Origin: Alteraurantiacibacter aquimixticola
GTDB lineage: Bacteria; Pseudomonadota; Alphaproteobacteria; Sphingomonadales; Sphingomonadaceae
Assembly (NCBI RefSeq): GCF_004965515.1
Contig: NZ_SSHH01000001.1
Span: forward strand, 1 to 64,000
Reading direction: 5' to 3'
DNA length: 64,000 nucleotides
The position numbers were made by a program, and so were the translations under genes. The notes beneath the pieces were generated by a model. It was not told the origin of the DNA, searched no databases, and worked only from the letters and a program-made list of their open reading frames with translations. Of this stretch, positions 17,767 to 63,616 are shown one piece after another. The number at the start of each line of letters is the position of its first letter. Position 1 is the first letter of the stretch.

Positions 17767-17789
17767 CAGCTCGGGGGGAGCCCAGAACC

Positions 17790-22448: not shown

Positions 22449-24557
22449 CTACTCCATCACATTCGCTTCGGGCGGCGTCAGCTCGATGTGGATGCCGTCT
22501 ACCTCCGGCCCGTTGGGGGGCATCTGGTAGCCATGGGCGATCAGGCGCGATTCCGGCAGGTCGAGCGCGGGCACGCTGTCGGGCCAGTAGTTCTCCGGGA
22601 CGCGCCCTGAGACAGGGTTCTTGTAGTGGAACCACATCGGCAGGATGTCTGGCCAGGCATAGGTCACGCCCGTCCCTCCGCGGAAATGCTCCGCGCGGCG
22701 GCCAAGCTCGGTCATCAATATGTCGGGCGGCAGCCGTTCGACCAGCGGGCTCTGCCCGGCGGCCTGGCCGGGCGGGCTGACCGGCACACCGGCCCAGCCG
22801 TCCTTCCAGTTCTGGCTGGTCATGTAATGCTCGTCGATCGTCAGGCTCCATAGCCGCCAGATGCCGTCCTCCAGCACTGCCTGGTCGTTGGGATACATGC
22901 CCGAATTGAAGCCGGGTGAGTAAAGGGAGTTCCCTTCCTCTCCCGCCTCGCGCCGCAGGCCGGTTCGCGGCTGCCACAGGCGGGTGCGCAGATTGGCCGA
23001 TCGCCCGTCATGCGAGACGTGGATGACCGGCTGGAAGCGCCAGTGATAGGAGATGCCGTCACGCAGTTCGGGCGGCTCTCCCCACATGGTCGTGGCGGCG
23101 GCCTTGATCCGTTCGCGGCCGAGATAGAAGCCGGCAAAGGGCGAATGCTTGTTGCCGTCCTCGGCGAAGATCGATGACAGCTCCACCCAGAAGAAATCGT
23201 CGAGGTAATAGCCATAGGCGGAGGAGACGTTGACAACGCCGTCATAGGCGAGCGAGCGTTGCAGGCGGCGTCGTGCATCGAGAAAGCGCTCGGCATCGCT
23301 GCGCGCAGGGCTGGCCGATTGCGCTGGCTCCAGCGCGGGGGTGAGCGGGGCGGACCCGGCAAGCTCGAAGCCCGTGATGGTGACGTCCATTCCGGTCACC
23401 GGATGCGGCTCGGTAAAGGCCGGGAGCACACCATGGCGCAGATGCGCGGTGCCGCCATGCGCCCAGCCGGAAGCATAGTCGGCCTCCAGCAGCGGATAGA
23501 TGCGCATCTCGCGGATCTTCCATAGCCCCTCATCAAGCACGAAGCGGTTGCGGAACACGGCGAAGCTCCAACCTGCTTCCCCACCATCGCTCATCATGCC
23601 GAGGGCAATGCCGCGGGCATAGGCCTCACGCCGGTTATCGGCGACGGTGACGATGGTGTCGAAGCTGGGATGCTCGTTGAACTGGCCCTGTTCGAGGCCC
23701 TGCGGCCCCATGCGCTCCATCGCCTGCCGGATGGCGTCGGGTCCCGCAAAGGTGCCGACCCCGGCAATCTCCACCACCCCATCGGTCGCAAAGAGATCGA
23801 CCACATCGTCCCACATCTTGCGGTCGACATAATAGCCATAGGCGTTCTGCAGGTTGCGGACGACATCCTCCGCATTCATCGCGGCGATGCGGTCTTCCAG
23901 GCTGTCGAGCGTGGCATTGCTCTGCGGGGCCGCGCCCTCGGCGGGCGGGACGGGAATGCCGGTTTCGTCCACCGTGAAGTGGAACGGCACCTGCGGCAAT
24001 TGGGCGTTGCCGATATTCGCCCAGCCATTGGCGTAGTCGCCCTCGAACTGCGGGAAATAATGCAGCCGGGACAGTTTCCATGTGCCGCCTTCGAGCACAT
24101 ATTCGTTCTCGTATACGCCGCCTTCGATCGAGCTGCCGCCCTCGCCATCGCCGGACATGGTCATGCCCATCCAGCGCGATTTCGCGCTCCCGCCATCGGC
24201 CGAGAGATTGACCAGCGGGTCCTCTATGAACTCGGCGTGCAAGGCGCCCGGCGCCAGCCCGCGCGGGCCGATGCGGGCGCGCAGCCAGTTCTCGATCGCT
24301 GGCCTGCCGCGCAAGCTTTCCTCTCCCCAGACCAGTTCGGCATCATCCGCGAACAGGGCTGCCATTTCAGCGGCGAGGCCGAATTGTGCATATTGGGCGT
24401 AGAAGCGCTGGAGGTCCTTCACCTCGCGGATCGCCTCGACCCGCGAGACGTCGCGGGCCAGCTCGTCGATCTGCACGCGCGAGACGTCCTGCGCTGCAGG
24501 AGCGCCGGGCAAGGCGGCAACAAGCAAGGCTGCGATCAGCGATAGGGAACGCCGCAT
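22449..24557 (-). CDS. Exported protein with three SnoaL-like (NTF2-fold) domains
   Basis: 702 residues from the ATG at 24557, with GGGAGGA upstream; an ATG five codons earlier lacks a ribosome-binding site. Signal peptide MRRSLSLIAALLVAALPG ending near APAAQ. Three NTF2-like domains at roughly 26-200, 215-380 and 425-600; the core pattern YAQYAQFGLAAEMAALFADD recurs as YGYYVDRKMWDDVVDLFATD and YGYYLDDFFWVELSSIFAED. The family covers small ligand-binding pockets and isomerases. A triple fusion with a signal peptide is unusual. It converges on tpsA and diverges from a TonB-dependent receptor gene, so it is likely part of the catabolic cluster rather than of the TPS pair. Confidence 0.88.
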   Translation of the reverse strand: MRRSLSLIAALLVAALPGAPAAQDVSRVQIDELARDVSRVEAIREVKDLQRFYAQYAQFGLAAEMAALFADDAELVWGEESLRGRPAIENWLRARIGPRGLAPGALHAEFIEDPLVNLSADGGSAKSRWMGMTMSGDGEGGSSIEGGVYENEYVLEGGTWKLSRLHYFPQFEGDYANGWANIGNAQLPQVPFHFTVDETGIPVPPAEGAAPQSNATLDSLEDRIAAMNAEDVVRNLQNAYGYYVDRKMWDDVVDLFATDGVVEIAGVGTFAGPDAIRQAMERMGPQGLEQGQFNEHPSFDTIVTVADNRREAYARGIALGMMSDGGEAGWSFAVFRNRFVLDEGLWKIREMRIYPLLEADYASGWAHGGTAHLRHGVLPAFTEPHPVTGMDVTITGFELAGSAPLTPALEPAQSASPARSDAERFLDARRRLQRSLAYDGVVNVSSAYGYYLDDFFWVELSSIFAEDGNKHSPFAGFYLGRERIKAAATTMWGEPPELRDGISYHWRFQPVIHVSHDGRSANLRTRLWQPRTGLRREAGEEGNSLYSPGFNSGMYPNDQAVLEDGIWRLWSLTIDEHYMTSQNWKDGWAGVPVSPPGQAAGQSPLVERLPPDILMTELGRRAEHFRGGTGVTYAWPDILPMWFHYKNPVSGRVPENYWPDSVPALDLPESRLIAHGYQMPPNGPEVDGIHIELTPPEANVME

Positions 24558-24860: not shown

Positions 24861-27443
24861 ATGAAACTGAAGGTTACTCTTTGTGCTGCTTCGCTGCTGG
24901 CGCTCGCCGCCTCGCAAACGGCCATGGCGCAGGACGCGGCGAACGAACCGCGCGAGGAGAATTCGCGCGACGACAACGTCATCTTCGTTACCGGCACGAA
25001 AATTGCCACCGATGTGCAGGACGTGCCGATCGCGATTACCGCGATCACCTCGGAAACGCTGGAATCGCGGGCGCTGACCAATACGTCGGAGCTCGGCGCG
25101 ATCGTGCCGAACGCGACCTTTCGCAAGTCGCAGGGCGTCTTCGGTCCCGCAGTCTCGGTCTATTTGCGCGGCATCGGCCAGACCGACCCGCAATTCAACG
25201 GCGAGCCCTCGGTCGCTTACTATATCGACGACGTCTATTATCCGTTCCTCTTCGGCTCCCAGTTCGACCTTCTCGACCTGGAGCGCGTGGAGGTCCTGCG
25301 CGGACCGCAAGGTACGCTCTTCGGCCGCAACTCGATTGCCGGCGCGATGAACCTGGTCTCGCGCCAGCCGAGCCTGACGGAGGCCACGGGTTTCGTCGAC
25401 GTTACCGTTGGCGCCTATAACCGCAGGGACCTGCGCGCGGGTTTCACCGTGCCGCTGACCGACACACTGGCCATCGGGGCATCCTTCATTTCGAAGAAGC
25501 GCGACGGCTATCAGGAGATGCTGGATTTCTCCTGCCAGATGCACCTCAACGGTACGCCGGAACTGGCGGGGACCTTCCCCTTCCAGTCGCCCGAAACCAG
25601 CTTTGGCGGCACGCGTGAGCCTACCAGCTGCGTTATCGATCACCTGGGCGGCGAGGATACGCGCGCCGTGCGCGGTTCGCTGTACTGGGCGCCGACGCCG
25701 GATGTCGAGGTGTCGATTTCGGCCGACTATACGGACCAGAACGACGAAATTCCCGCCGAGTACATTTTCGATACCGATTATGCGCAGACCACCACACGCG
25801 CAAACTTCGTGACGGCGGCGGACCAGTTCTCGATCCCCGGCACGCCGTTCCGCTGGGACGAAAGGTTCGAGACGGGCGATCCGTACCAGACTTTCGACAA
25901 TTACTGCGATCCCTTCCCGGCGGGCACGCTGATCCCGGGCAACAGCTATTACAACGGTTCGATCTTCAAGGGCGGCAATTGCCACGGCAACACCGTTCCG
26001 CTGACCAGCCAGGGCGTGCAGGGCAAGATCGTGGTGGCGCTCAACGGGAATCTCGATGTGACCGCCATTGCCGGATATCGCGAACTGGATCTCAGCTTCG
26101 GTGCGGCATCGGACGGGACGGTGCTCAACGATTCGGTGATCTATCACGAATTCCACGAGAGCCATCTCACCGGCGAATTGCGGCTGACAGGCCAGTACGA
26201 CTTCTTCGATTTCGTCACCGGCGTATTCTATTATGACGGCGAGGCCGATCACTTCGGCAATCCGCAGGGCGTGCGTGCAGGCACGCAGCGTTTCCAGAAC
26301 GATGTCTACGAGCCTTCGGCGCTGGCCGGATATCTCAACGTCAATGTGCGGCCGACAGACCGCCTCTCACTGGTCGGCGGCCTGCGCTATTCGAAGGATG
26401 AAAAGGGCGTCTATTTCGAAAGCCTGACGGACAATACGCCGCCGGGCGAGACGACCTTCGTTCCCTCCGGAGCCAGCACCGTTTTCGATATCGATATCGA
26501 GAGCAAGCGGTGGGACTGGAAGGCCGGTGTCGACTTCGAGGTCAATGACAACCTGCTGCTCTATGCTTCCGCCGGATCGGGCTATCGCCTGCCGGGCTTC
26601 AATGTCCGTCCCTCGCAGGCCGGGCAGGAAGGCCAGACGCCGGGCGAGGCGCTGATCAGCTACGAAATCGGCGCCAAGGCCGAATTCTGGGATCGCCGTA
26701 TCAGGCTGAACGTGTCAGCATTCCAGATGGACTTCACCGAACGTCCGGCGGGCTTCTCCGGCCAGGAAGGCCAGTGGAACGATGACCTCACCGGGCTGGT
26801 GGCGGGCGGTTCGACCGTCGTCTCTGCCGGACCGGAGGGCTCGGACTTCGCCAATGCCTTTACCACCTGCCGTCCCTATGACGCGGCAACCGACGGCCCG
26901 CCGGTGCTCAACACCACGCCCGACCAGGGTGTTGGCGTCGCCTGTGTCGCGCGCAGCTTCAGCTATGCAGTGGCAGAGGGCAGGATCCGTGGTTTCGAGG
27001 GCGAACTGGAAGCAGAACCGATCGACGATCTGCGGATCAACGGATCGGTGGGCTTCAACTCCTACAAGTCCGAGGACGAAGCTCAGCGCACGGCCGTGCC
27101 TGACTGGAATGCCAGCGCCGGTATCCAGTACGAGGTGCAGACGCCGATGCTCGACGGCTCGATCACGCCGCGCCTCGACTGGTTCTATTCCGGCACGATC
27201 TATTACAGCACCTTGCCCGAATATCAGGACAGCACGCGGCAGGACGCCTTCTCGACCTTCAACGGCCGCATCACCTACAGGAACGAACCGCTCGACTTCG
27301 AAGTCGCAGTCGGCGCGACGAACCTGTTCAACAAGTTCTACTACCGTCAGAAAGTCATCTTCCGGGGTTTCGGACTGCCGACCAATCTCGGCCAGCCTGC
27401 CGCGCCGCGGGAATGGTATCTCAGCGTCAAGAAGCGTTTCTGA
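24861..27443 (+). CDS. TonB-dependent outer-membrane receptor
   Basis: 860 residues from the ATG at 24861, which is preceded by GGGAGG. Signal peptide ends at TAMA-Q. A TonB-box-like DDNVIFVTGTK follows, then the plug domain with SVYLRGIGQTDP, SVAYYIDDVYY and LERVEVLRGPQGTLFGRNS, and a long beta-barrel ending in EWYLSVKKRF with terminal Phe. The LFGRNSIAGAMNLVSRQP pattern is typical of sphingomonad receptors for aromatic or glycosidic substrates. It heads the plus-strand cluster and probably imports its substrate. An in-frame extension to 24735 was rejected as it precedes the ribosome-binding site. Confidence 0.95.
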   Translation: MKLKVTLCAASLLALAASQTAMAQDAANEPREENSRDDNVIFVTGTKIATDVQDVPIAITAITSETLESRALTNTSELGAIVPNATFRKSQGVFGPAVSVYLRGIGQTDPQFNGEPSVAYYIDDVYYPFLFGSQFDLLDLERVEVLRGPQGTLFGRNSIAGAMNLVSRQPSLTEATGFVDVTVGAYNRRDLRAGFTVPLTDTLAIGASFISKKRDGYQEMLDFSCQMHLNGTPELAGTFPFQSPETSFGGTREPTSCVIDHLGGEDTRAVRGSLYWAPTPDVEVSISADYTDQNDEIPAEYIFDTDYAQTTTRANFVTAADQFSIPGTPFRWDERFETGDPYQTFDNYCDPFPAGTLIPGNSYYNGSIFKGGNCHGNTVPLTSQGVQGKIVVALNGNLDVTAIAGYRELDLSFGAASDGTVLNDSVIYHEFHESHLTGELRLTGQYDFFDFVTGVFYYDGEADHFGNPQGVRAGTQRFQNDVYEPSALAGYLNVNVRPTDRLSLVGGLRYSKDEKGVYFESLTDNTPPGETTFVPSGASTVFDIDIESKRWDWKAGVDFEVNDNLLLYASAGSGYRLPGFNVRPSQAGQEGQTPGEALISYEIGAKAEFWDRRIRLNVSAFQMDFTERPAGFSGQEGQWNDDLTGLVAGGSTVVSAGPEGSDFANAFTTCRPYDAATDGPPVLNTTPDQGVGVACVARSFSYAVAEGRIRGFEGELEAEPIDDLRINGSVGFNSYKSEDEAQRTAVPDWNASAGIQYEVQTPMLDGSITPRLDWFYSGTIYYSTLPEYQDSTRQDAFSTFNGRITYRNEPLDFEVAVGATNLFNKFYYRQKVIFRGFGLPTNLGQPAAPREWYLSVKKRF

Positions 27444-27527: not shown

Positions 27528-28490
27528 ATGACAGCCAGACTGGTCGATACACATGCACATTTGATCGCGGACGACTGGACCACCTATCCGGCGCGCCCGT
27601 TCACGCCGGACCTGCCGGTTCCGGACCGTCCATCCTTCACCATGACGGCCGAGCAATTGCTCGCCGAAATGGACCGGCACGGCGTGACGAGCGCCTGCCT
27701 GGTCCAGCGCGGCCATATCTATGGCTATGACAACAGCTATATCCTCGATTCCGCCGCGCGTTATCCGGATCGTTTCCGGCCCGTCGTCATCCTCGATACG
27801 CAGGACCCGGAAACGGCGGACCACTACCGCGACCTTGTGCGCAACAGGGGCGTGGCGGGCTTTCGCATGGCCAATAGCAGGCCGTGGATCCTCGATACCG
27901 CCTGGCTCAGTTCGCCCAGTGCGATGGAGGTGTGGAAGGCCTGCGCGGAGCTGGGCACGCCGATGACCGTCATCGTCTTCGACAACCAGCTTTCCTATGT
28001 CCTGCCGCTGATCAAGCTGATCGCCCTTATGTATCCCGACCTGCCGGTCATCCTCGACCATGGGGCCATGCCCTACGGGATTTCGCAATATGAAGTGGCG
28101 CTGCGCGAGGAGGCGGGCGAAACGGTGACCATGCCGCCGCCGCCCGATTACGGGATAGATGCGACGATTGCGATCTTCGAGGATGTTCCGAACGTCTATT
28201 TCAAGATCACCGAAATCAACATGGAGCGGCTGGTGAAGGCGGAGGTCGAAGCGGCCGCGCTCGTCCGCCACATGGTCGATCGTTTCGGCCCCGGCAGGCT
28301 CGTCTGGGGCTCCGATGTCGGCCAGAGCATGCTGTGGAATTATGCCGAGAAGGTCGAAATGGCGCGGGGCGCCTGCGCCTTGCTGTCGGAAGCGGAAGCA
28401 ACGGCCTTCCTGCATGACAATGGAGCCAGGCTCTACGGGCTGGCGATGGGTGCCGGGGACGAATCCGTCCGGCGGGGAGAAGCGAGATGA
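27528..28490 (+). CDS. Amidohydrolase-family protein (cytoplasmic copy)
   Basis: 320 residues with the TIM-barrel amidohydrolase_2 fold. The metal ligands are visible: HxH in LVDTHAHL near residue 8, His in VILDHGAMPYG, and the late Asp in LVWGSDVGQSM. There is no signal peptide. The subfamily includes decarboxylases and hydrolases of aromatic ring-derived acids (LigW/ACMSD-like), as well as lactonases. It is followed, with an ATGA overlap, by a Tat-exported Asp-box protein, and a paralogous pair occurs at 31993-34162 with the opposite localisation signals. Substrate unknown. Confidence 0.87.
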   Translation: MTARLVDTHAHLIADDWTTYPARPFTPDLPVPDRPSFTMTAEQLLAEMDRHGVTSACLVQRGHIYGYDNSYILDSAARYPDRFRPVVILDTQDPETADHYRDLVRNRGVAGFRMANSRPWILDTAWLSSPSAMEVWKACAELGTPMTVIVFDNQLSYVLPLIKLIALMYPDLPVILDHGAMPYGISQYEVALREEAGETVTMPPPPDYGIDATIAIFEDVPNVYFKITEINMERLVKAEVEAAALVRHMVDRFGPGRLVWGSDVGQSMLWNYAEKVEMARGACALLSEAEATAFLHDNGARLYGLAMGAGDESVRRGEAR

Positions 28491-29752
28491 CGAGAAGCCC
28501 GGATGCCTTGCAGTTCAGAATGTCGCGCCGCGCGGCGCTGGTGGGCGGCACCGCGGCGGGCGGGACGATATTCTCCTCGCTCGCGCGCGCCGGCACGGCT
28601 GAGGATGCCGGTGCATGGGCGCCGCCGCGCAAGCTGGCCGATGTCGAGCATGACGTGGTCTACCGCCGGGATGACGAGATGGTCGGATGGCCGCATGTCA
28701 TGGGCTACTGGAATTTCGGCGATGGCGAGATCCTGCAGCAGGTCCGCTCCACGACCACGCGATACGGCAATGCCGACGATATCAGCCATGACAATATCGG
28801 CCGCGAAGGGCTGGGCACCCGCACCATCGGCCTGCGCAGCACGGATTACGGGCAGACGTGGCAGGAGCCCACGATCGACATCATGGACAATGCCGATCCT
28901 ACGCAGGCTGGCGTGCGCTCCATGGACGATTTGCAGCCGATCGACTTCCTCAATCCCGACATCATCATCGCCAACTCCTCTCCCGGCTTCGGCACGCCGG
29001 AAGGGCGGACCTTGCTGCGTGTGTCCAAGGATCGCGGGCATAGCTGGGGGCCGGCGATAGATGTGCCGCTCGATGCGCTGCATTCGCTGTCGGGCATGAA
29101 TTCCTCGCTGATCCGTCCGGACGGGACCGCACTGATCTGGCTGATGGAAGTGGATGACAGCGGCTGGAACCGCCACCCTTGCGTCTATGCCCTGCCGCCG
29201 GGCGGTGCCGACTTCCATTTCCTGACCTTCATCACGCCGAAGCGCGACCCGAAAGGGGCTGCGAGCGGCGTCTATGACACCACCTATCGCTTTGGCGGCC
29301 ACCGCTGGTTCTACCCGCGCGGCTATTTGCTGCCGAGAGGCCGGATGCTGTGCGTATTGCGGTCGCAGCGCGATCCGCGTGGGATCATGTGGACGGAGAT
29401 CTTCTCCAGCGACGATGCCGGACGGACCTGGCAGTTCCTCAGCCGCGCCAACGATTTCGGCGCGCCCGGCAGCCTGGTGCAGATGCAAGATGGCCGGCTG
29501 GTGCTGGTCTATGGCTACCGGCTGGCGCCGCAAGGCATCCGCGCGCGTGTGAGCGAGGACGAGGGAAAGAGCTGGGGCCGCGAACTGATCATCCGTGACG
29601 ATGGCGGCAGCTGGGACCTCGGCTATCCCAATGCCTGGGCCATGCCCGATGGCCGGGTCGGGGTGATCTACTACTTCAACGGCAAGGACGATCCCGTCCA
29701 GGTCAATGGCGGCGTGCGCCATATCCAGCGCTCGATCTTCTCGATCGACTGA
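28487..29752 (+). CDS. Tat-exported sialidase-fold (Asp-box) protein 1
   Basis: 421 residues. The twin-arginine signal is MSRRAALVGGTAAGGTIFSS, a short way into the chain. Asp-boxes of the type S-x-D-x-G-x-T/S-W occur at STDYGQTWQ, SKDRGHSWG, SSDDAGRTWQ and SEDEGKSWG, the mark of a six-bladed beta-propeller. The family includes exo-sialidases, but the arginine triad cannot be judged by eye and the setting is catabolic, so sialidase activity is not assumed. The start overlaps the stop of the amidohydrolase gene (ATGA), with GGGGAGAAG upstream. Two paralogues follow. Confidence 0.87.
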   Translation: MTRSPDALQFRMSRRAALVGGTAAGGTIFSSLARAGTAEDAGAWAPPRKLADVEHDVVYRRDDEMVGWPHVMGYWNFGDGEILQQVRSTTTRYGNADDISHDNIGREGLGTRTIGLRSTDYGQTWQEPTIDIMDNADPTQAGVRSMDDLQPIDFLNPDIIIANSSPGFGTPEGRTLLRVSKDRGHSWGPAIDVPLDALHSLSGMNSSLIRPDGTALIWLMEVDDSGWNRHPCVYALPPGGADFHFLTFITPKRDPKGAASGVYDTTYRFGGHRWFYPRGYLLPRGRMLCVLRSQRDPRGIMWTEIFSSDDAGRTWQFLSRANDFGAPGSLVQMQDGRLVLVYGYRLAPQGIRARVSEDEGKSWGRELIIRDDGGSWDLGYPNAWAMPDGRVGVIYYFNGKDDPVQVNGGVRHIQRSIFSID

Positions 29753-29759
29753 TGAGGCG

Positions 29760-31019
29760 ATGAGCGGTCGTGCCCCCAAACTGTCCCGGCGCGGCGCCCT
29801 TGCGGCGGGGTCGGGAGCGTTGCTGGCCCTGGCGAGCAGCGCGGCGCGCGGGCAATCGAGCTCTGTGCTTGTGCGGACCGACTGGAAGCCGGCACGCGAC
29901 CCCAGCGCGCGGCATTCCATCGTCTATCGCAATGATCGCGAATTCGCCGCCTGGCCCTTCTATTGCGGCCTGTGGCAAGTGGGTGACGGATCGATCGTCG
30001 CGGGCTTCAAGCGCGTCCCCTCCGATTACGGACAGCCGGACGCGGTCGATCACACCAATCTGACGCGCAATATGGGCGAGATCGTCGTCATCCGCTCGCG
30101 CGATGGCGGGGAAAGCTGGGACCGGGACTCGATCGTCCCCGTCTTCGACATGCTGATCAATAAGGAGAGCGACTTTCCTGCCGGGGCGGCGGACGACTGG
30201 CCCTCCTTCCCGCCGCTCGACTTTGCCAATCGCGACACGCTGCTGATGGGTGGCGGGATACCGGCGCTCTTCGCCAATCCTGCCCAGGGCTGGATGCGGG
30301 CCTCGACCGATGGCGGCCGGACGTGGAGGCCGCATCGCTTGCTCGAGATGGACGATTTCCCTTCCGTCTCGCTACCCGGCAGTTCGATCTATTCACTGCG
30401 AGCCGACGGCACCATGCTGTTCGGGGTGCACACCAATGCGCCGGGGGCGCAGGGGCCGCGGCCGGTTATCTATGCATGCGCCAATGGCCGCGACTTCCAC
30501 TATCTCGGATCGATCATCGGTTACGAGCCGAAGGATCCCTATTATCCGGGCGGCTCCCCCTTTGCCGCCGCGCCGCATTTCTATCCGCGTCCCGTGGTGC
30601 TCAAGGATGGGCGCGTGATCGCCTCGCTGCGATACCAGCGCGATGCGCGCTACAATATCTGGACCGAAGTGCATGAGAGCCTCGATGGCGGGCGGACCTG
30701 GCGCTGGCTCAGCCGGGTCAATGACTGGGGCGCGCCGGGCGATTTGGTGCCGATGGCGGATGGGCGCGTCGTCTGCGTCTACGGTTTCCGCAATGCCCCG
30801 CAGGGCATCCGCTATCGCGTGAGCGAGGATGGCGGGCTGACATGGGGCCGCGAGATGATCCTGCGCGACGATGGCGGCAGCTGGGACGTGGGCTATCCGC
30901 GCGTCATCGAAGTGGCGCCGGGCCGCTTGCTGGCAACCTACTACATCAACCTGAAGAACGACCCGATCCAGATGAATGGGGGCGTCAGGCATATCGCCTG
31001 CACCGTCTTCGAGCCGTGA
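29760..31019 (+). CDS. Tat-exported sialidase-fold (Asp-box) protein 2
   Basis: 419 residues. It begins with a short Tat signal, LSRRGALAAGSGALLALASS, and cleaves near ARGQ. Asp-boxes: SRDGGESWD, STDGGRTWR, SLDGGRTWR, SEDGGLTWG. C-terminal segments GREMILRDDGGSWDVGYP and NGGVRHIACTVFEP are shared with proteins 1 and 3, so the three form a paralogous set. This copy is the most divergent and has no amidohydrolase partner directly beside it. Eight bases separate it from gene 1. Confidence 0.85.
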   Translation: MSGRAPKLSRRGALAAGSGALLALASSAARGQSSSVLVRTDWKPARDPSARHSIVYRNDREFAAWPFYCGLWQVGDGSIVAGFKRVPSDYGQPDAVDHTNLTRNMGEIVVIRSRDGGESWDRDSIVPVFDMLINKESDFPAGAADDWPSFPPLDFANRDTLLMGGGIPALFANPAQGWMRASTDGGRTWRPHRLLEMDDFPSVSLPGSSIYSLRADGTMLFGVHTNAPGAQGPRPVIYACANGRDFHYLGSIIGYEPKDPYYPGGSPFAAAPHFYPRPVVLKDGRVIASLRYQRDARYNIWTEVHESLDGGRTWRWLSRVNDWGAPGDLVPMADGRVVCVYGFRNAPQGIRYRVSEDGGLTWGREMILRDDGGSWDVGYPRVIEVAPGRLLATYYINLKNDPIQMNGGVRHIACTVFEP

Positions 31020-31038
31020 CATATCGAGGGGACTGCCT

Positions 31039-31878
31039 GTGCCGATAATGCATCTCGCCCGCCGGGCCTTGGCCGCGATCTGCGCCCTGTGTCTTGCTGC
31101 CTGCACCACCCTGGCCGTTGGCTCGGCAGAACCCGCCGTGCGGAGCGTCCGCATCGCAACGGCAGGCGGAATGGCGGATGCGATCCTTGCCGTACCGGAG
31201 GGGCCGGGCAGCCATCCCGCCGTCATTCTCTGGCCCGATCTTTCGGGGCTGAGACCAAGCTATCGCGAGCTGGCGGGCAAGCTGGCCGGGGAAGGCTTTG
31301 TCGTCCTCGTCCCCAACAGCTTCCACCGCAGCATTGCGCTGGATGGTAGTGCGGCAACCGCGCAACCCGTCCTTCCTTTCGGAGAGGTCATGCGGCGCGG
31401 CGCGCCATGGCGGGAGGCGGCGGATGACGCAGCGATCATGGCGGATGCGCAGGCCTATGCGCGCTATCTCGATACGCTGCCGCAAGTGGATGGCGATGCG
31501 GGTCTCGGCACTTTAGGGGTCGATATCGGCGGGGCGCATGCCTTCCTCGCAGCGCGCGCCCTGCCGGAGCGGGTCAGGGCGGTCGCGGCGATCCATCCGC
31601 TGGCCATCGCCACGTCGCGCGAGAACAGCCCGCACCTCTTCGTCGCACAGAGCAGGGCGCAATATTTGATCGAGATCGCCCGGCCCGACGACGAGCGGGA
31701 GCCGGGCGACAAGGACGATCTGAGAACCGCCTTCGCCGATGCCGGCCTCGCGAGCCGGATCGACATCGTGGATGCCGGCCACGGCTATTTCATGCCGGAC
31801 GATCCGGCTTTCGACAGCGACTTGGCGGAAGCCGGTTTCGGCAAGATCGTCGCCCTGTTCGAAGAGGCACTTGAGTGA
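31039..31878 (+). CDS. DLH-fold lipoprotein with Asp at the nucleophile position
   Basis: 279 residues from the GTG at 31039 (GAGGGG about 7 bases upstream; an ATG at 31048 is an alternative). The lipobox L-A-A-C with Cys22 (AICALCLAACTTL) predicts a lipoprotein. The fold resembles dienelactone hydrolase: ILAVPEGPGSHPAVILWPD at the start and His248 in DAGHGYFMPDD at the end. The nucleophile elbow, normally G-x-C-x-G-G, reads GVDIGG with Asp162. It may be inactive or use an Asp nucleophile as haloalkane dehalogenases do. It lies between sialidase-fold gene 2 and the second amidohydrolase. Confidence 0.8.
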   Translation: MPIMHLARRALAAICALCLAACTTLAVGSAEPAVRSVRIATAGGMADAILAVPEGPGSHPAVILWPDLSGLRPSYRELAGKLAGEGFVVLVPNSFHRSIALDGSAATAQPVLPFGEVMRRGAPWREAADDAAIMADAQAYARYLDTLPQVDGDAGLGTLGVDIGGAHAFLAARALPERVRAVAAIHPLAIATSRENSPHLFVAQSRAQYLIEIARPDDEREPGDKDDLRTAFADAGLASRIDIVDAGHGYFMPDDPAFDSDLAEAGFGKIVALFEEALE

Positions 31879-31992
31879 GGCTTGGGTCCGTGTCGGGGCG
31901 TTCTCGGGCCGGATCGAGTGCCGTTGCGATCAAGCTGCGGGGCCATGCGGCGCTAGATTGAAGTCAAGAATGACACCGGGGAGAGGATAGCA

Positions 31993-32967
31993 ATGATCAA
32001 TCGTCGTACATTCATCGGGTCGAGCGTCGCGGCGGCAGGCCTCGCCGCCTTGCCGGGATCGGCCTTCGCCCATGTGATCAAGCCGTCCTACAGCTTGTGG
32101 GATGCGCATGGGCATTTCTACACCAACGATGTCGACCGCTACCCGTTCAATTCGCAAACCGCGCGCTACGGCCCGGAAATCATGGTCGCCAAGGCCATGC
32201 GCTTTCCCCAGACACCCAGGGAAGTGTTCGAATTCTGGGACGAAAGCGGCATCGCGAAAGGGGCCGGCGTCCAGTATTCCAGCACCTATCGCTTCGACAA
32301 TTCCTATCTGCTGGACATTTCCGCGGACCATCCCGACCGCATTGTCCCGGTGGTCATCCTCGATCCGCATGCCGCCGATACGCCGGACAAGCTGGCGACG
32401 ATGGCGCGCGACAACAAGATTGCGGGCGTGCGCTTCACCGGCACGGACCGCGAAGGCTTCTTCCCGTTCCTGACCGACGCTGCGGCTGGCACGTGGGAGG
32501 CGGCCAATGACCTTGGCCTCGTCGTGGTGCTGATGCCGATCGGCGGGGATACGCCGGGGGCGATGGCAGCGGTGGCCGAACATGCCGTGCGCTATCCCAA
32601 TGCCAATATCCTGCTCGACCATATCGGCTTCCCGCGCCCGGCCGACTTGCCGGAGACATGGGGGCTCACACCGCAGCACTTCGCGCTCGCGGACATTCCG
32701 AACGTCTACTACAAATACACCACCCTGCTGATCGAGCAGCTGCACGCGCAGAACATCGACGAAAAGCCGTTCCTCGAGGCGATGGTGCAGGCCTTCGGCG
32801 CGGATAAATTGTGCTGGGGCAGCGATGTCGGCAATACGCCGGGCAGCATGTTCGGCTGGGTGCAATATGCGCTCGCTTCCGCGCAGGGGCTCAGCGCGCA
32901 GCAGCAGGAAGACCTGTTCTGGAACACGGCCGAGCGCATCCACGTGCCGGGCGGCAGGGGCTCCTGA
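31993..32967 (+). CDS. Tat-exported amidohydrolase-family protein
   Basis: 324 residues. The twin-arginine signal MINRRTFIGSSVAAAGLAAL cleaves near AFA-H. The TIM-barrel ligands are conserved: HxH in WDAHGHFY, His in NILLDHIGFP, and Asp in LCWGSDVGNTP. It is a paralogue of the cytoplasmic protein at 27528-28490, and this exported copy precedes a sialidase-fold gene without a signal. Candidate activity is hydrolysis or decarboxylation of a ring-derived intermediate in the periplasm. Confidence 0.87.
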   Translation: MINRRTFIGSSVAAAGLAALPGSAFAHVIKPSYSLWDAHGHFYTNDVDRYPFNSQTARYGPEIMVAKAMRFPQTPREVFEFWDESGIAKGAGVQYSSTYRFDNSYLLDISADHPDRIVPVVILDPHAADTPDKLATMARDNKIAGVRFTGTDREGFFPFLTDAAAGTWEAANDLGLVVVLMPIGGDTPGAMAAVAEHAVRYPNANILLDHIGFPRPADLPETWGLTPQHFALADIPNVYYKYTTLLIEQLHAQNIDEKPFLEAMVQAFGADKLCWGSDVGNTPGSMFGWVQYALASAQGLSAQQQEDLFWNTAERIHVPGGRGS

Positions 32968-32989
32968 GGCACCGGGAGAGGCTGATCGC

Positions 32990-34162
32990 ATGGCAACGGA
33001 TATGAGACCGCCGATCGTGCCTGCCGGGCTGGACCATGACGTGGTCTATCGCCGGGAGGACGAGTTCTGCTCCTGGCCCTTCACCAGCGGCTTCTGGGAA
33101 AATGGCGACGGGACGCTAATCGCCAATTTCATGACCCGCAATGTCAGCTATGACAGCGGTGATGCGATCCGGCACGACGTGCTGGGGCAGAACAGTTCCA
33201 ACCCGCGCACCGTCACCGTCAGGTCGCATGATCGCGGCCTCACATGGGATGGCGAGGACCCGCAGTATAACATGATGGCTGGCCCGGGCGGGGGTGGCGA
33301 GACGCTCGATCCCGCGCAGATGGCGACGTCCTTCGATGGGCCGGTCGACTACCGCGACCCCAATGTCCTCCTCTCCAGCGGAAGCATGGGCGGCTTTGCG
33401 ACCGCGAGCACAAGGGCGACGGCCAAGCTGTCGCGCGACGGCGGGAGGAGCTGGGGCGAGACGATCCTTGTCCCGCTCGAGAACCTGCCCTCGCTCACCG
33501 GCATACAATCGACCCTGGTCCGTCCGGACGGGCGGATGCTCATGTTCCTGTTCTCGGTCGAACCAGACAATACGCGCCGCCGCCCGCTGGTCTATGGCAG
33601 CGCGAACGGGGGCCGCGAATTCCATTTCATGAACTACATCGTCCCCGAGGAAGATCCCTGGGGGAATGCCGATGGCGATTACGACGATCCCAGCGTGGCC
33701 TTTGTCGGCCATCGCTGGTTCTATCCGCGCGGCTACATGCTCCCGGACGGACGGATCATCTGCGTGATCCGCTGCCAGCGCGACCCGACCGGCGTGATGT
33801 GGAGCGAGCTTTACAGCAGCGACGATGGCGGGCGGACATGGGGCTTCCTCTCGCGCATCAACGATTTCGGCGCGCCGGCCAGCCTTGTCGTCATGCCCGA
33901 CGGGCGCGTGGTCGCGATCTATGGCTATCGCCTCAAGCCCTCGGGCATTCGCGCAAGGGTGAGCGAGGATGGCGGCCGCACATGGGGCCGCGAGCTGATC
34001 GTGCGCGACGACGGAGGCAGCTGGGATCTTGGTTATCCCAATGTCTGGCATGTCGAAGGCAGCACGGTCGGCGCGCTCTATTACTTCAACAGCAAACACG
34101 ATCCGGTCCAGGCCAATGGCGGCGTGCGGCACGTGGCGCGCAGCATCTTTTCGATCGATTGA
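32990..34162 (+). CDS. Sialidase-fold (Asp-box) protein 3, no export signal
   Basis: 390 residues from the ATG at 32990, with GGGAGAG upstream. The N-terminus MATDMRPPIVPAGLDHDVVY has no Tat or Sec signal, and longer in-frame extensions only run antiparallel in frame to the preceding gene. Asp-boxes SHDRGLTWD, SRDGGRSWG, SSDDGGRTWG and SEDGGRTWG. It is very close to protein 1 in the second half: WFYPRGYMLPDGR and GRELIVRDDGGSWDLGYPN. Predicted cytoplasmic. Follows the exported amidohydrolase with a 22-bp gap. Confidence 0.85.
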   Translation: MATDMRPPIVPAGLDHDVVYRREDEFCSWPFTSGFWENGDGTLIANFMTRNVSYDSGDAIRHDVLGQNSSNPRTVTVRSHDRGLTWDGEDPQYNMMAGPGGGGETLDPAQMATSFDGPVDYRDPNVLLSSGSMGGFATASTRATAKLSRDGGRSWGETILVPLENLPSLTGIQSTLVRPDGRMLMFLFSVEPDNTRRRPLVYGSANGGREFHFMNYIVPEEDPWGNADGDYDDPSVAFVGHRWFYPRGYMLPDGRIICVIRCQRDPTGVMWSELYSSDDGGRTWGFLSRINDFGAPASLVVMPDGRVVAIYGYRLKPSGIRARVSEDGGRTWGRELIVRDDGGSWDLGYPNVWHVEGSTVGALYYFNSKHDPVQANGGVRHVARSIFSID

Positions 34163-34352
34163 CGGGCTTCCTCCCTGGGTTCGGGATCGCGTCCTTTACG
34201 CTGCGGGCAGCGATCCCGAACCGCTTTTTGAGGAGGGGATGAAACCAGAGGGAAGGCAGGCACGAAAGATGTCCAACGCGGCTGCAGGCTTGATCAATAG
34301 CCTCCCTGACAGCATGAGCATCCGATGTTCTTCACACCCACTCACGCGTCCG

Positions 34353-35141
34353 ATGGCTGACCCGCAAGCGGACAAGGCAGCTACTACTGCCGATGAGACG
34401 GTCAAGGCGGCACGCGTGACCGTGCGCATTCTCGAGCAGCTTGCCACGCATGACGAAATGGGCGTGACCGAGCTTGCGCGCGAGACAGGCATGAACAAGG
34501 CACGCGCCTTTCGCTACCTGCGCACGCTGGTGGCGCTGGGCTATGCCATCCAGTTCGAGGGCAGCGAGCGCTATGCGCGCGGCCCCAAGATGCAGGCGCT
34601 GGCCCGCGTCATCGGCCAGTCTGCGGAGGAAGGCGTGGTCGATCTCGCCCGCCCGGTGCTGCAGCGGCTGCACGAGACTTTCGATCACACTTTCAACCTG
34701 TCGCTGGTCTATGGCGATTCCGTCACCATCGTGGAGACACTGCCCGGAAGGGGGCTGGTGGGGATCGTCGTGCAGGTGAACCAGCAATTGCCGCTCCATT
34801 CCACCGCGGCCGGAAAATTGCTGCTGGCCGACCGGCTGGAACGCAGCGGAGACCTACCTTGCGGGGAGCTGGAACGCTTCACCCCGCACACCATCCTCGA
34901 CCGCGAAGCGCTGCGCCGGGATATCGAGGACGTCGTCCGCAAGGGCTGGGCGGATGCGCCCGAGGAGGTCGTGCTGGGCATCAACGCTGTAAGCGTTCCG
35001 ATCCATGATCACAGGGGCGAACTGGTGGCCATGCTGACAGCGATGGATTCGATCCAGTTCATCACCCGCGAGCCTTCACAAACCCTGGTCGAGACCTTGC
35101 GCGATGCCGCGGCCGAGGTCAGCGCGGCTCTTACAGTCTAG
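34353..35141 (+). CDS. IclR-family transcriptional regulator
   Basis: 262 residues from the ATG at 34353, the start that gives the usual family length. Frames open further back (34239 has GAGGAGGGG directly before it; 34269 is also possible), but those codons look unlike coding sequence. HTH: MGVTELARETGMNKARAFRY. Effector domain LPLHSTAAGKLLLADRL and GINAVSVPIHDHRGELVAML is typical of IclR. Same strand as the catabolic genes before it and the aldolase after it (12 bp), so it likely controls the cluster from the TonB receptor onward. Effector unknown. Confidence 0.92.
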   Translation: MADPQADKAATTADETVKAARVTVRILEQLATHDEMGVTELARETGMNKARAFRYLRTLVALGYAIQFEGSERYARGPKMQALARVIGQSAEEGVVDLARPVLQRLHETFDHTFNLSLVYGDSVTIVETLPGRGLVGIVVQVNQQLPLHSTAAGKLLLADRLERSGDLPCGELERFTPHTILDREALRRDIEDVVRKGWADAPEEVVLGINAVSVPIHDHRGELVAMLTAMDSIQFITREPSQTLVETLRDAAAEVSAALTV

Positions 35142-35153: not shown

Positions 35154-35909
35154 ATGCAGAACCTTGTCGAACGGGTGCAGGCGGAAGGGCGCGGGCTGCT
35201 GGGCACATGGGTCAAGATCCCGTCCTTCGAGACTGTCCAGCTGATCGGCCATGCCGGCTTCGACTTCGTCGTCATCGACATGGAACACGCGCCGCACTCG
35301 CTGGACCGCGCCAATGAGCTGGTCTTCTGTGCGCAGGCGATGGGCATGGCCGCTTTGGTGCGCATGCCGGACCAGCTCGGATCGACCATCCAGCCACTGC
35401 TCGATGGCGGGGCGGACGGGCTGCTGGTGCCGCGCGTTACCAGTACCAATGTCGCCGATGCCATCAGCCGTCGCATGGTCTTCGCCCCCAAGGGAGAGCG
35501 CGGCCTTGGTACCACCTCGCGTGCCGGGCGCTGGGGGCTCGCGCCGATGGAAGACTATTTGAAGCGCGGCGACGAGCAAGTGCTGCGCATGATCCAGCTG
35601 GAGGATTGGGCATCGGTCGAGCGGGCGGCGGAATTTGCCGCCCTCCCGCATGTGAACGGCCTCTTCATCGGCCATGGCGACCTTTTCCTGTCCAGCGGCA
35701 AGCCCGCCAGCGACCCGGCAGTGCGCGAACTGACCGCGGCCATGCTGGCTGCAACCAAGGAAGCGGGCATCGCCTCGGGCGTCGCAGTTGGATCGCCCGA
35801 GGAAGCGCGCAGCCATCTCGAGCAAGGCTTCTCGCTGGTCATGCTGAGCAACGACACGACCCTGTTCGGCCAGGCCGTGGCCGAAGCCGCTGCGGCAGCG
35901 CGGGCCTAA
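35154..35909 (+). CDS. HpcH/HpaI-family aldolase
   Basis: 251 residues. Divalent-metal class II pyruvate aldolase fold: VVIDMEHAPHSLD near the N-terminus, MAALVRMPD (arginine of the active site), GADGLLVPRVTS, and the Glu/Asp metal ligands in MIQLEDWASVE and LFIGHGDLFLS. The family splits 4-hydroxy-2-oxo acids into pyruvate and an aldehyde, the last step of many meta-cleavage pathways. GGGAGAG ribosome-binding site. Its stop overlaps the convergent SDR gene by 4 nt. Confidence 0.92.
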   Translation: MQNLVERVQAEGRGLLGTWVKIPSFETVQLIGHAGFDFVVIDMEHAPHSLDRANELVFCAQAMGMAALVRMPDQLGSTIQPLLDGGADGLLVPRVTSTNVADAISRRMVFAPKGERGLGTTSRAGRWGLAPMEDYLKRGDEQVLRMIQLEDWASVERAAEFAALPHVNGLFIGHGDLFLSSGKPASDPAVRELTAAMLAATKEAGIASGVAVGSPEEARSHLEQGFSLVMLSNDTTLFGQAVAEAAAAARA

Positions 35910-36691
35910 AGCGCGCCGATATAGCCGCCGTCGAGCGGCAGGACATGCGCATTGACATAGGCGCCCGCGCGCGAGGCGAGGAAGATCACCGCGCCCTGCG
36001 CATCCTCGGCAGCCCCCGCCCGCCCGGCAGGGATATAGGCGGCGATGCTCTTCTGCGTCGCTTCGCTTTCGGTGTCGTGCATTTGCGAAGGGAATGGACC
36101 CGGCGCGATCGCGTTGACGGTGATGTTGTCCGACGCGAAGGACTTGGCGAGCGAACGCGTGACCTGGTGGATCGCGGCTTTCGACGCGCCATAGGGATGC
36201 GCCTCCCAACCCGGCACGTGCAAGCCCCCGATGGAGCCGATATTGATGATCCTTGCCGGGTCCCCGGGCCGCGCAGCCATGCGCAATTGCGGCAGCAGGG
36301 CTTTGACCAGGAATACCGGCGCGCGCAGGTTCACGGCCATCAGCGCGTCCCAGTCTTCTTCGGAGAGGCTTGCAAGCTCGCCGCCGCAATTGGTCCCGGC
36401 ATTGTTCACCAGCAAGTGCAGCCGGTCTTCGCGCTCGGCGAAGGCGCGCGCGAGCGCCGCAGGCGCATCGGGGTCGGCAAAATCCGCCTCCAGCCCGACC
36501 ACCTCTCCGCCGCTTTCCTCTGCCAGCCGCGCTGCTGCATCCTGCGCGCGGGAAAGCTCGCGCCCGGTCACATAGGTGCGCACGCCGCGCCCAGCGAGGC
36601 CCGAGGCGATCATGGCCCCGATGCCGCTGGTCCCACCCGTCACAAGGGCGGTTTTTCCGCGCAGCGAGAATAGCGGATCGGTTTCTTCCAT
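35906..36691 (-). CDS. Short-chain dehydrogenase/reductase
   Basis: 261 residues from the ATG at 36691 (GGGAG about eight bases upstream); the frame extends to 36748 without support. Motifs: TGGTSGIGAM, NNAGTNCGG, Ser in NIGSIGG and YGASKAAIHQ with the intact Tyr-Lys pair. C-terminal LPLDGGYIGAL. Similar to gluconate 5-dehydrogenase/3-oxoacyl reductase type SDRs. Transcribed towards the aldolase gene and divergent from the AraC-type gene at 37045. Confidence 0.9.
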   Translation of the reverse strand: MEETDPLFSLRGKTALVTGGTSGIGAMIASGLAGRGVRTYVTGRELSRAQDAAARLAEESGGEVVGLEADFADPDAPAALARAFAEREDRLHLLVNNAGTNCGGELASLSEEDWDALMAVNLRAPVFLVKALLPQLRMAARPGDPARIINIGSIGGLHVPGWEAHPYGASKAAIHQVTRSLAKSFASDNITVNAIAPGPFPSQMHDTESEATQKSIAAYIPAGRAGAAEDAQGAVIFLASRAGAYVNAHVLPLDGGYIGAL

Positions 36692-37044
36692 GGTGGTCTC
36701 CCGGGTCTTGCGGGCACCAGCATAAGAGGCGGATTTCCGCCGCTTCAAGCGCCAATCGCCAGATGCGAAAATATACTTGCCGCGGCAAATTCACGCGCCG
36801 CGATGGTCAAGCGGGCAGGCCTGTTGCCCCTAGGATGGAACCATGCGCCAGGTGCTTGGGCGCAGCTCCCCAAGGGCGGGGTCGTGTTCAGCGCGGCTCC
36901 GCCCTTTTGGCGTCCGGCCTTACGTTGCGCTGCAATAAATGAAACAGTGTTTCAAAAACTTGACTTAAGGTCGGTTTTCCGGATAGACCTGCGCAAAATA
37001 AAGGCGACCGGAAAAACTGGCGCCAACAGGCGGAGAGGGTCTGG
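36692..37044. other. 353-bp divergent region between SDR and AraC-type gene
   Basis: No gene. It contains the palindrome TGAAACAGTGTTTCA at 36940-36954, abutting TTGACT (36960-36965) with ATAGAC 17 bases later (36983-36988), a plausible promoter for the AraC-type gene. The minus-strand promoter of the SDR gene is not obvious. Confidence 0.5.
36940..36988 (+). promoter_or_regulatory. Palindromic operator plus sigma70-like promoter
   Basis: TGAAACAGTGTTTCA (36940-36954) is a perfect 7-1-7 palindrome of the size TetR-type or similar dimers bind. TTGACT and ATAGAC at 17-bp spacing follow at once. A protein bound to the palindrome would touch the -35 box. Confidence 0.5.
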
Positions 37045-38010
37045 ATGGAACTTCTGAGCACGAAGGGCCTGCCGGTAAACGGCAGGGCCGCAGCTTGGGC
37101 GGAGCTTTATGCGACGCGGATGAGCGCTTGCGAGTTCACGCCGCAGGATGGCGGTGAATTCGCCGCCGAATTGAGGATTGGCAGCCTTGGTCCGGTCAAG
37201 CTCGCCCGCTTGCAGCTCGACCGCTGCAGCGTGGAGCGGCGGGCCAGCCACATCACCCAGAATTCGCAGCGTTTGTACAACTTCCTGCTGCAGGCCGAAG
37301 GATCGAGCATCTTTTATCATTGCGGCCGGGAAGCCGAACTTGTCGCAGGCGACTTCGTCCTCTGCGATACCGGCCTGCCGCATTTCTTCCGCACGGAGGA
37401 TCACTCGACCACGGTGATGGTGCGCGTGCCGGGCGAGACGCTGCGTTCCTACCTGCCGACGCCGGAGCAATTTTGCGGCCAGCTGCTGGGCAGGGCGAGC
37501 GGGCTGACCGGGACGATCGCGGCCATGGTGCGCGAATTGAGCAGCGGCGAAGCGGGGATCGATGCGAATTGCGAAGACCGCGTCGCGCGCTACCTGCTGG
37601 AGATGATCTCCATGGCCTATACAGCCGGGATAAGCCCAAGCGAGGATGCCGAGGCCACGGCGATCGCGTGGCAGCGGCACAAGACCGTGCTCTGCTATAT
37701 CGAGGATAATCTGCGCGATCCCGAGCTGTCGCCGGCGACGATCTCCGAACGGCTGAAAGTGTCGCCGCGCTACCTGCGCGCGGTGTTCTCGCCCGGCGGC
37801 GAGAAGATGGGCGCATACATCCTGCGCCGCCGGCTGGAGGAATGCGCGCGCCAGATGGCCAACCCCGCGTGGAAAGCGCATACGCTGACCGAGATCGCCT
37901 TTTCATGGGGCTTTAACAGCGCGGCGCATTTCACCCGCACCTTCCACGAGAAATACGGAATGGCCCCGCGCGAATATCGCCGGGTCATGCTGATGAAGGA
38001 CTGCGCCTGA
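37045..38010 (+). CDS. AraC-family transcriptional regulator (FeaR-like)
   Basis: 321 residues, with GGAGAGGG before the ATG. The N-terminal AraC-binding-like sensor resembles that of FeaR-type activators (LYNFLLQAEGSSIFYHCGRE, HFFRTEDHSTTVMVRVPG). C-terminal double HTH: SPATISERLKVSPRYLRAVF and LTEIAFSWGFNSAAHFTRTF, then HEKYGMAPREYRRVM. It lies beside the flavoprotein/cytochrome operon, converging on it with a 2-bp gap, and upstream of no other gene on its strand. Likely a local regulator of SDR or flavoprotein genes. Confidence 0.92.
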   Translation: MELLSTKGLPVNGRAAAWAELYATRMSACEFTPQDGGEFAAELRIGSLGPVKLARLQLDRCSVERRASHITQNSQRLYNFLLQAEGSSIFYHCGREAELVAGDFVLCDTGLPHFFRTEDHSTTVMVRVPGETLRSYLPTPEQFCGQLLGRASGLTGTIAAMVRELSSGEAGIDANCEDRVARYLLEMISMAYTAGISPSEDAEATAIAWQRHKTVLCYIEDNLRDPELSPATISERLKVSPRYLRAVFSPGGEKMGAYILRRRLEECARQMANPAWKAHTLTEIAFSWGFNSAAHFTRTFHEKYGMAPREYRRVMLMKDCA

Positions 38011-38012: not shown

Positions 38013-38411
38013 TTAGTCCGTTGCGGGCGTGTTCAGGGCTGCCGTGGCCGCGAGATAGGCGGCGAGCTCCTCGATCTGCGCATCGGTCAGCTCGGCCTTG
38101 CGGAACATCGGCATGGCTCCGCTGCCGCGCCGCACGAATAGCGTGAGCACCGGTGCGGAGAGGTCGCTGCGCAGTTCAAGCGCGGCAGGAAGCGCGCCCT
38201 CATATTTCGCGGCGAGCGCGGCGGTGCCCGGCAGCATCGGAGAGCCGTCATCGCCGGGCCCGGTGCCGTGGCAGGGGGCGCATTGCCGGGCGAAGACTTG
38301 CTGTCCGGGCAGGTCCGCCCGCTCGATATCGCGCACCGGCTCTCGCGCGGCGGCGACGCCGAGGAGGAGGGTGGAGGCGGCCAGTGTGCCGAGGGTCAGC
38401 CTTATGCTCAT
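38013..38411 (-). CDS. Exported monohaem c-type cytochrome (module A)
   Basis: 132 residues. Signal peptide (LGTLAASTLLLGVAAA), haem motif CAPCH in ARQCAPCHGTG, and a distal Met in GAMPMFRKAEL. Ends with the usual helix (IEELAAYLAA). ATGA overlap with the stop of the upstream flavoprotein gene. The pair resembles the flavocytochrome p-cresol methylhydroxylase / eugenol hydroxylase, in which this subunit takes electrons from the covalent FAD. Last gene of the operon. Confidence 0.9.
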   Translation of the reverse strand: MSIRLTLGTLAASTLLLGVAAAREPVRDIERADLPGQQVFARQCAPCHGTGPGDDGSPMLPGTAALAAKYEGALPAALELRSDLSAPVLTLFVRRGSGAMPMFRKAELTDAQIEELAAYLAATAALNTPATD

Positions 38412-40021
38412 GCTCGGAACCTCCGCGGCCAGATCCCGCCGCGGCCCGGAGCGATGATGCCATCGGGGTCAATCGCATCCTTCAGCTGCTCGTGGAAGCG
38501 GCGCAATATGTGGTTGTTGAAGCTGTAGGTGCCCGCCACGTCATCCTGATAGATCGGTGCGGCGCGATAGTCGCCCCAGCCATGTTCGGCAGCAACCGCG
38601 ACGCATTTCTTCATCGCCGCATGGGTGATCGCATTATGCGCGGGATCGTCATGCTTGATGCTGGGCGCGAAGACCATCTGGAAGGTATGCGTGTGCCAGA
38701 ATAGCGGAGTGGTCAGCGCGTTGAAGAAGGGCGGCAGCGTCGGGAATTCCTTCATCGCATCGCCCAGCACGCGCTGCACCTCGAACACCGCCTCACCCGT
38801 ACGCGGGAGGACGGGGAAGAAGCCGACATGGCCGTCGTCACGCACGATCTTCCACGCGCCGAGGCTGGGCACGCCCAAGGATCGGCGGCGCTTGATGCTG
38901 GTCTGCCAGGGCTGGGTGGTGTTGTTCAGCTGCTCTTCGGTGGCAGGCATCGGGAAGTGGTCGCCTTCGAAGCTCGCCGCGCCGGGAATGTCCGAAAGGA
39001 TGCGATCCTTGGCATAGTGCCAGTTTTCGAGCGTCGCCTTTTCAGGGCCGAAGAATTGCAGTTCCACCTGCCAGTTATGCAGGCCCGCATCGCTCGCCGC
39101 CGCATCCATTTCCGCATCGGAGGGGCCGCCGGTCCTGGTTGCCAGCGCCATGAAATCCGCATTGCCCATCAGCGCGGAGAGGGGCGAGCCATATTCGACC
39201 TCCCCAATCAGCCCGCTGTCGGACAGGTAGTTCACATGGTTCACCAGCTTCACGAAGTCGCGCCGGCGCGGCACGGTGATAAGGGCGCTGCGGTAATATT
39301 CGGGCAGCGGCAGCAGGCGGAAACCCATCTTGGTCACCACGCCGAAATTGCCTTGCGCGAACAGGCCCGCCGGGTCCGGTCCGAAGCCGTAAGGGTATTC
39401 CTGCCAGGTGTCGGAGCCGGGCAGCGCACCCATGCCGGTGCGCATCACCTCGCCATCGGGCAGCACCACTTCCATCCCGCAATGCGCGCCGAAATGGTCG
39501 CGGAAATGCGGCATGGTGTAGCCGACACCGCGTTCCAGCGAGTTGCCGACCGGCGAGCCCCAACCGGGATCGGGGCAATCGAGCATCAGCTTGAGGCCGC
39601 GCTCCTGGATTTCGCGATAGAGGTCGAAATAGGAGACGCCTGGTTCCACCAGGCAATAGGCGCGCTCCTCATTTACCTCGATCACGCGGTTCATGCGCTT
39701 GAGATCGAGCACGACCGAGCCGTTCACATTCGGCGAAGGGCCGCCATAGCCAAAGTTCTTGCCGGTCGAGATCGGGAAGAGCGGCACGCGGTGGCGGCGG
39801 GCGATTCGCACCACTTCGCTGACCTGCTCCACGTTCTCCGGCGCGACGGCGGCGCTGGCATGGCGTTCCTCGCCCGTGTTCCAGACGGGGCTGAAGCTGT
39901 CGCGATAGGGGAACATGTCCGCCTCTCCCGACCACACCCAGTCCGCACCGACCGTGCCGCGCAATTCTTCGAGGAAGGCGGCAAAGCCCGCCTCGTCCAT
40001 ATCCGGCGGCAATAGGCTCAT
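38408..40021 (-). CDS. VAO/p-cresol-methylhydroxylase-type FAD oxidoreductase A
   Basis: 537 residues from the ATG at 40021, which overlaps the stop of the Tat-protein gene (ATGA). FAD-binding PCMH-type domain: VPLFPISTGKNFGYGGPSPN with the pyrophosphate-binding GYGG, LDLKRMNRVIEVNEERAYCLV and VEPGVSYFDLYRE. C-terminal cap domain HTFQMVFAPS. The family oxidises para-alkyl or hydroxymethyl phenols via a quinone methide. No signal peptide, as in flavoprotein subunits exported or assembled with their cytochrome. A paralogue (B) lies at 40841-42430. Substrate unknown. Confidence 0.92.
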   Translation of the reverse strand: MSLLPPDMDEAGFAAFLEELRGTVGADWVWSGEADMFPYRDSFSPVWNTGEERHASAAVAPENVEQVSEVVRIARRHRVPLFPISTGKNFGYGGPSPNVNGSVVLDLKRMNRVIEVNEERAYCLVEPGVSYFDLYREIQERGLKLMLDCPDPGWGSPVGNSLERGVGYTMPHFRDHFGAHCGMEVVLPDGEVMRTGMGALPGSDTWQEYPYGFGPDPAGLFAQGNFGVVTKMGFRLLPLPEYYRSALITVPRRRDFVKLVNHVNYLSDSGLIGEVEYGSPLSALMGNADFMALATRTGGPSDAEMDAAASDAGLHNWQVELQFFGPEKATLENWHYAKDRILSDIPGAASFEGDHFPMPATEEQLNNTTQPWQTSIKRRRSLGVPSLGAWKIVRDDGHVGFFPVLPRTGEAVFEVQRVLGDAMKEFPTLPPFFNALTTPLFWHTHTFQMVFAPSIKHDDPAHNAITHAAMKKCVAVAAEHGWGDYRAAPIYQDDVAGTYSFNNHILRRFHEQLKDAIDPDGIIAPGRGGIWPRRFRA

Positions 40022-42430: not shown

Positions 42431-42463
42431 GAATTGTCTCTCCCTCATCGCAATTCATACGGG

Positions 42464-59480: not shown

Positions 59481-59490
59481 CCGGCGGGGC

Positions 59491-63592: not shown

Positions 63593-63616
63593 AACAGAAG
63601 CCCTTATCCCCACCCC

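Follow-up and report, generated by a model that had tools for sequence, protein, structure and literature searches.

The closest described systems are the TonB-receptor-linked catabolic loci of sphingomonads, which combine an outer-membrane receptor with periplasmic hydrolases, AraC and IclR regulators and an aldolase, as does the gene cluster analysed here. Unlike those loci, this cluster is predicted to have its two enzyme families each represented in both compartments, and it includes a triple SnoaL protein. The TctABC-HpcH-BKACE carboxylate operons of alphaproteobacteria likewise contain relatives of its propellers, an HpcH aldolase and an IclR regulator, but in most of them neither a TonB-dependent receptor (TBDR) nor matches to its two amidohydrolases (AH1 and AH2) were found, and their propellers are mostly unsignalled. 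Among individual proteins, the COG3618 lactonases (LigI 2-pyrone-4,6-dicarboxylate lactonase; L-fucono-1,5-lactonase; 4dlf) are the best match for the AH1 model and the AH2 profile, while the Asp-box propeller fold is shared with GH33 sialidases and with the structure 5hx0. No description of such a cluster was found in the literature searched.

The window, i.e., the whole stretch of 64,000 nucleotides of Alteraurantiacibacter aquimixticola that was analysed, contains six head-to-tail genes between 27528 and 34162, all on the forward strand. The first encodes AH1, a COG3618-type amidohydrolase without a signal (27528–28490; PF04909, 1.8e-29), and its stop codon overlaps the start of P1 as ATGA. 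P1 is a predicted sialidase-fold Asp-box propeller with a Tat signal (28487–29752; BNR_2, 2.3e-15), and is followed by a third propeller, P2, also with a Tat signal (LSRRGALAAGSGALLALASSAARG; 29760–31019; BNR_2, 2.1e-14; 42% identical to P1). A dienelactone-hydrolase-family (DLH) protein with a lipoprotein-type signal (LAAC; 31048–31878; PF01738, 7.8e-19) precedes AH2, a COG3618-type amidohydrolase with a Tat signal (31993–32967; PF04909, 1.5e-26), and the last gene encodes P3, a sialidase-fold propeller without a signal (32990–34162; 53% identical to P1). The original prediction described the region as two amidohydrolase/propeller pairs, AH1 with P1 and AH2 with P3; its coordinates and family assignments were confirmed, although it omitted P2 and the DLH lipoprotein, which sit between the pairs.

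Upstream, a TBDR (an outer-membrane importer; 24861–27443, forward strand; start MKLKVTLCAASLLALAASQTAMAQ) was assigned to its family from its sequence and from the receptor in one related locus (L006), without a Pfam scan of this protein; most of the Gram-negative relatives have an orthologue (40–85%) with the same genes next to it. A triple SnoaL_4 protein with a Sec-type signal (MRRSLSLIAALLVAALPGAPAAQ) is encoded at 22449–24557 on the reverse strand (PF13577 in three stretches, 1.2e-68), and is kept in relatives, where the copies of three loci (L012-L014) lack the signal. Downstream are an IclR-family regulator (PcaR/PobR-like, start uncertain; 34239–35141, forward; PF01614, 4.3e-30; TIGR02431 under its cut-off), an HpcH/HpaI aldolase family protein (35154–35909, forward; PF03328, 8.8e-22), an SDR oxidoreductase (35906–36748, reverse; PF13561, 1.8e-48; orthologues 58–73%) and an AraC-family regulator (FeaR-like; 37045–38010, forward). 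The TonB receptor, triple SnoaL, SDR and AraC genes recur in related clusters, with IclR and HpcH present in some genomes; HpcH also adjoins distant propellers. The triple SnoaL protein, predicted to be exported, and the TonB receptor belong to the set. Elsewhere in the window, two FAD_binding_4 proteins on the reverse strand lie near the cluster (38408–42448) and are unmatched in the neighbourhoods of related clusters; at 16027–22433 an exoprotein of 1547 aa, with a TPS domain and five MBG_2 repeats, forms a two-partner secretion pair with a ShlB/FhaC-type transporter; and three tryptophan-halogenase-family proteins are encoded at 54978–63613, of which two directly follow an MFS gene of the sugar-transporter family.

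Tat-like N-termini were called, after start choice, by one simple rule of this analysis (not SignalP). The first in-frame start of AH1 gives MTARLVDTHAHL, with none upstream, and no signal was present; P3, whose start at 32990 stands behind GGGAGAGG, also had none. P1 begins with a Tat signal (MSRRAALVGGTAAGG..ARA), as does AH2 (MINRRTFIGSSVAAAGLAALPGSAFA / NRRTFIGSSVAAAGLAALPGSAFA). A longer P3 start (32825) was rejected, being an extension of 55 residues inside AH2 with no hydrophobic stretch. The four signal states given originally were correct, and none of the longer in-frame starts of P3, which run into AH2, supplies a hydrophobic stretch. A twin arginine with a hydrophobic stretch after it, both kept in orthologues, was found in P1, P2 and AH2, and these are predicted Tat substrates.

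Signal states were compared across 62 related loci, with further orthologues taken from whole genomes. Where the N-terminus was readable, AH1 orthologues were unsignalled in 16/16 cases, while a Tat signal was present in 15/15 distinct AH2 genes (16 rows, two of which, L008 and L019, overlap). In the propeller tree (86 rows), Tat signals were present throughout the P1 clade (13/13) and absent from its sister, the P3 clade (11/11); signal state changed at least seven times across the tree as a whole. Since only 16/140 other genes of these loci had Tat-like N-termini, the pattern in AH2 and in the P1 clade is not due to chance. DLH orthologues also have N-termini that look exported. What stays constant, as far as signals predict it, is the compartment of each gene and not the pair.

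The cluster is rare: a propeller match at 1e-20 was found in 4/301 genomes of the family and 5/401 of the order, three of the five being weak and partial. It occurs in two forms. In Nonomuraea, two Pseudonocardia and Sphingomonas canadensis, AH1 is accompanied by unsignalled propellers only, and a whole-genome search of these four found no true AH2, the best match to the AH2 profile falling on AH1 itself. The SnoaL protein, where it was read next to these genes (L012-L014), is likewise unsignalled. By comparison, all 12 of the relatives with a true AH2 and enough sequence had at least one Tat-signalled and at least one unsignalled propeller (Aurantiacibacter, an Altererythrobacter MAG, Erythrobacter Ww135, S. 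nicotianae, Altericroceibacterium, A. segetis, the SCN18 MAG, gammaproteobacterial bin 15, Sphingobium 66-54, Marinicaulis, Parvularcula and G138; JR-MC was left out as too fragmentary); these counts are raw with respect to relatedness and come from few genomes, some of them drafts, and actinobacteria make up three of the four one-compartment cases. The Parvularculaceae have a P2 copy, rather than P3, as their unsignalled propeller, and therefore the pair of internal and exported propellers appears to have arisen more than once. The importers also vary, with a TBDR recurring in Gram-negative clusters and oligopeptide-type ABC importers in actinobacterial ones.

The AF2 model of AH1 (pLDDT 84) was nearest to 4i6k, 4dlf, 2ffi and LigI; Foldseek ranks 1–8 were all of the COG3618/LigI type, and the model was about 18–20% identical to the COG3618 lactonase structures. 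AH2 matched 2ffi and LigI (4d8l) by profile. Residues H9/H11, H178 and D263 of AH1 are invariant and correspond to H39/H41, H210 and D278 of AH2; R113/R147 and K226/K241 (AH1/AH2) are also invariant in both, while H296 is invariant in AH1 only and H229 in AH2 only. Like the COG3618 lactonases, both proteins keep H-x-H, one further histidine and a late aspartate, which we take to be the LigI pattern; LigI is reportedly metal-independent. The claim that both amidohydrolases keep their metal ligands held for these residues, but a full metal site is unsupported because no further histidine is common to the two. Unlike COG3618 lactonases, both fell far short of the NCBIfam equivalog cut-offs (AH1 26.7 of 500 bits, AH2 40.5 of 400), the fuconolactonase-like matches of both being far below cut-off, and AH2 has its Tat signal. 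On sequence profile and, for AH1, predicted fold, AH1 and AH2 are LigI/fuconolactonase-like amidohydrolases and putative lactonases. The same genome encodes four more PF04909 proteins within 34 kb of a different contig (C4, 11653–45343).

Pfam matches and residue conservation bore out the prediction that the propellers keep their Asp-boxes, and P1, P2 and P3 all have the features of an Asp-box propeller of the sialidase fold. They share with 5hx0 a C-terminal motif, G-Y-R..P.G-I-R-A-R ... R.D-G-G..D-L-G-Y-P. One draft genome (L007, L011 and L021) encodes six propellers, three of them Tat-signalled and in tandem before AH2; another draft (G580:C29:10817-11965, L119) has a propeller frame with one in-frame TAG.

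Pointers to the substrate were also sought. Plasmid-borne close relatives were rejected as a pointer, giving only matches of <60% identity. An aromatic route, for which there were a pobA gene adjoining one locus (L005) and a PcaR-like IclR regulator, was set aside, as pobA was identified beside that locus only; the gene in question (L005:15481-16647) matched 4-hydroxybenzoate 3-monooxygenase above cut-off, two genes past P3. The fuconolactonase-like, SDR and HpcH matches may point to a sugar-acid route.

The reading preferred here, to which a probability of roughly 0.6 is attached, is that this is an accessory catabolic locus with its enzymes divided between periplasm and cytoplasm, acting on some carboxylate or lactone. 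It is the best reading because signal state is fixed per clade and because predicted exported and unsignalled propellers occurred together in 12/12 relatives with a true AH2 and enough sequence. The localisation, substrate class, reaction types and order of steps would then be as follows. Through the TonB-dependent receptor a natural product, probably carboxylated or of lactone type, would enter the periplasm, where the triple SnoaL protein (via Sec), P1 and P2 (via Tat), the lactonase-like AH2 (via Tat) and the DLH lipoprotein would act. A product, or part of the substrate, would pass the inner membrane, and a cytoplasmic set of the lactonase-like AH1 and the propeller P3 would repeat related chemistry, before the SDR and the HpcH/HpaI aldolase feed central metabolism. 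A two-compartment pathway had been proposed originally, and this part of the proposal stands; its further assertion, that each enzyme type works once inside and once outside, was too neat, given that two of the window's three propellers are predicted to be exported and only one to stay inside. Nor are the exported and internal sets full copies, since the cluster encodes no cytoplasmic version of SnoaL or DLH.

The two sets might instead be different steps of one linear pathway, their diverged paralogues sharing no reaction. At only 32% identity, AH1 and AH2 may differ in substrate, each has an invariant histidine of its own, and the missing internal SnoaL and DLH would fit such a division. However, the invariant residues shared between AH1 and AH2, and among the propellers, suggest the same type of reaction, and one set is enough in actinobacteria; the odds are well against a linear pathway. 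Far less probable is the arrangement proposed originally, in which a single amidohydrolase/propeller pair underwent duplication and its copies swapped export signals, leaving two functional pairs, each spanning the membrane. The window and two related loci (L004 and L005) do share the order AH1 (in)–P1 (out) ... AH2 (out)–P3 (in). Yet P1 and P3 are sister clades (support 98/90), while a far longer branch, with one state change on it, separates AH1 from AH2, and the two were not recovered as sisters once other family members were added, a single clade not being rejected (p-AU 0.27). The amidohydrolases are thus probably old, separate clades and P1/P3 a later propeller duplication; P2, a member of a separate deep propeller clade, is unaccounted for by a swapped pair. 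The pairing was not conserved either. In a count of neighbouring amidohydrolase and propeller genes (same strand, no more than 300 bases apart) across the window and its relatives, 11 adjacencies were of the same state, 10 of opposite state and 2 had one state unreadable. AH1 adjoined an unsignalled propeller in 7 cases (L012-L015, L019, L021 and L036) and a Tat propeller in 5, and AH2 a Tat propeller in 4 (L006, L011, L027 and L076) and an unsignalled one in 5. The mirror arrangement is a matter of local gene order, and two same-compartment sets (AH2, P1, P2, SnoaL and DLH outside; AH1 and P3 inside) fit the predicted states better than swapped pairs.

It is hardly more credible that the locus serves glycan or glycoside utilisation, with propellers that are genuine glycosidases. 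The AF2 model of P3 (pLDDT 92.9) did find sialidases, next after its top structural match 5hx0 (Dfer_1899, function unknown), and the BNR_2 matches, the Asp-boxes and the weak fuconolactonase-like amidohydrolase matches are in keeping with a glycosidase. Unlike GH33, though, the family lacks the first catalytic arginine (x-R-I-P motif) of sialidases, this position being G, S or A in 83/83 rows with a residue there, in a register taken through the 5hx0 alignment; with no sialic acid context either, use of sialic acid was rejected. The cluster showed no other glycan enzyme, and distant members of the family adjoin tricarboxylate transporters and BKACE: at twelve distant propeller loci, the 82 neighbour proteins included TctA (8), TctC (8), HpcH (7), BKACE (6) and HTH_IclR (6), a context that points to carboxylic acids over glycans.

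Under the two-compartment reading, the minimal form would be AH1 and a propeller (with SnoaL where seen), all unsignalled, as in the actinobacteria and Sphingomonas canadensis. Copies of SnoaL and of the propellers would then have gained signals, and a second, old amidohydrolase clade would have been added, to give the exported set. A more ambitious account, offered tentatively and rather doubtful as a whole, is that a cytoplasmic pathway of AH1, propeller and SnoaL went largely periplasmic in bacteria with TonB receptors, with an internal set of amidohydrolase and propeller retained, that the pair of internal and exported propellers arose independently in sphingomonads and Parvularculaceae, and that the propellers are carboxylate enzymes and not glycosidases. 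The locus draws attention to enzyme groups without an assigned reaction, namely a family of sialidase-fold propellers that occurs alongside carboxylate transporters and aldolases, and two clades of LigI-like amidohydrolases. Related enzymes that are all inside in some genomes and split in others would also offer a natural comparison, with which to test why bacteria shift catabolic steps to the periplasm.
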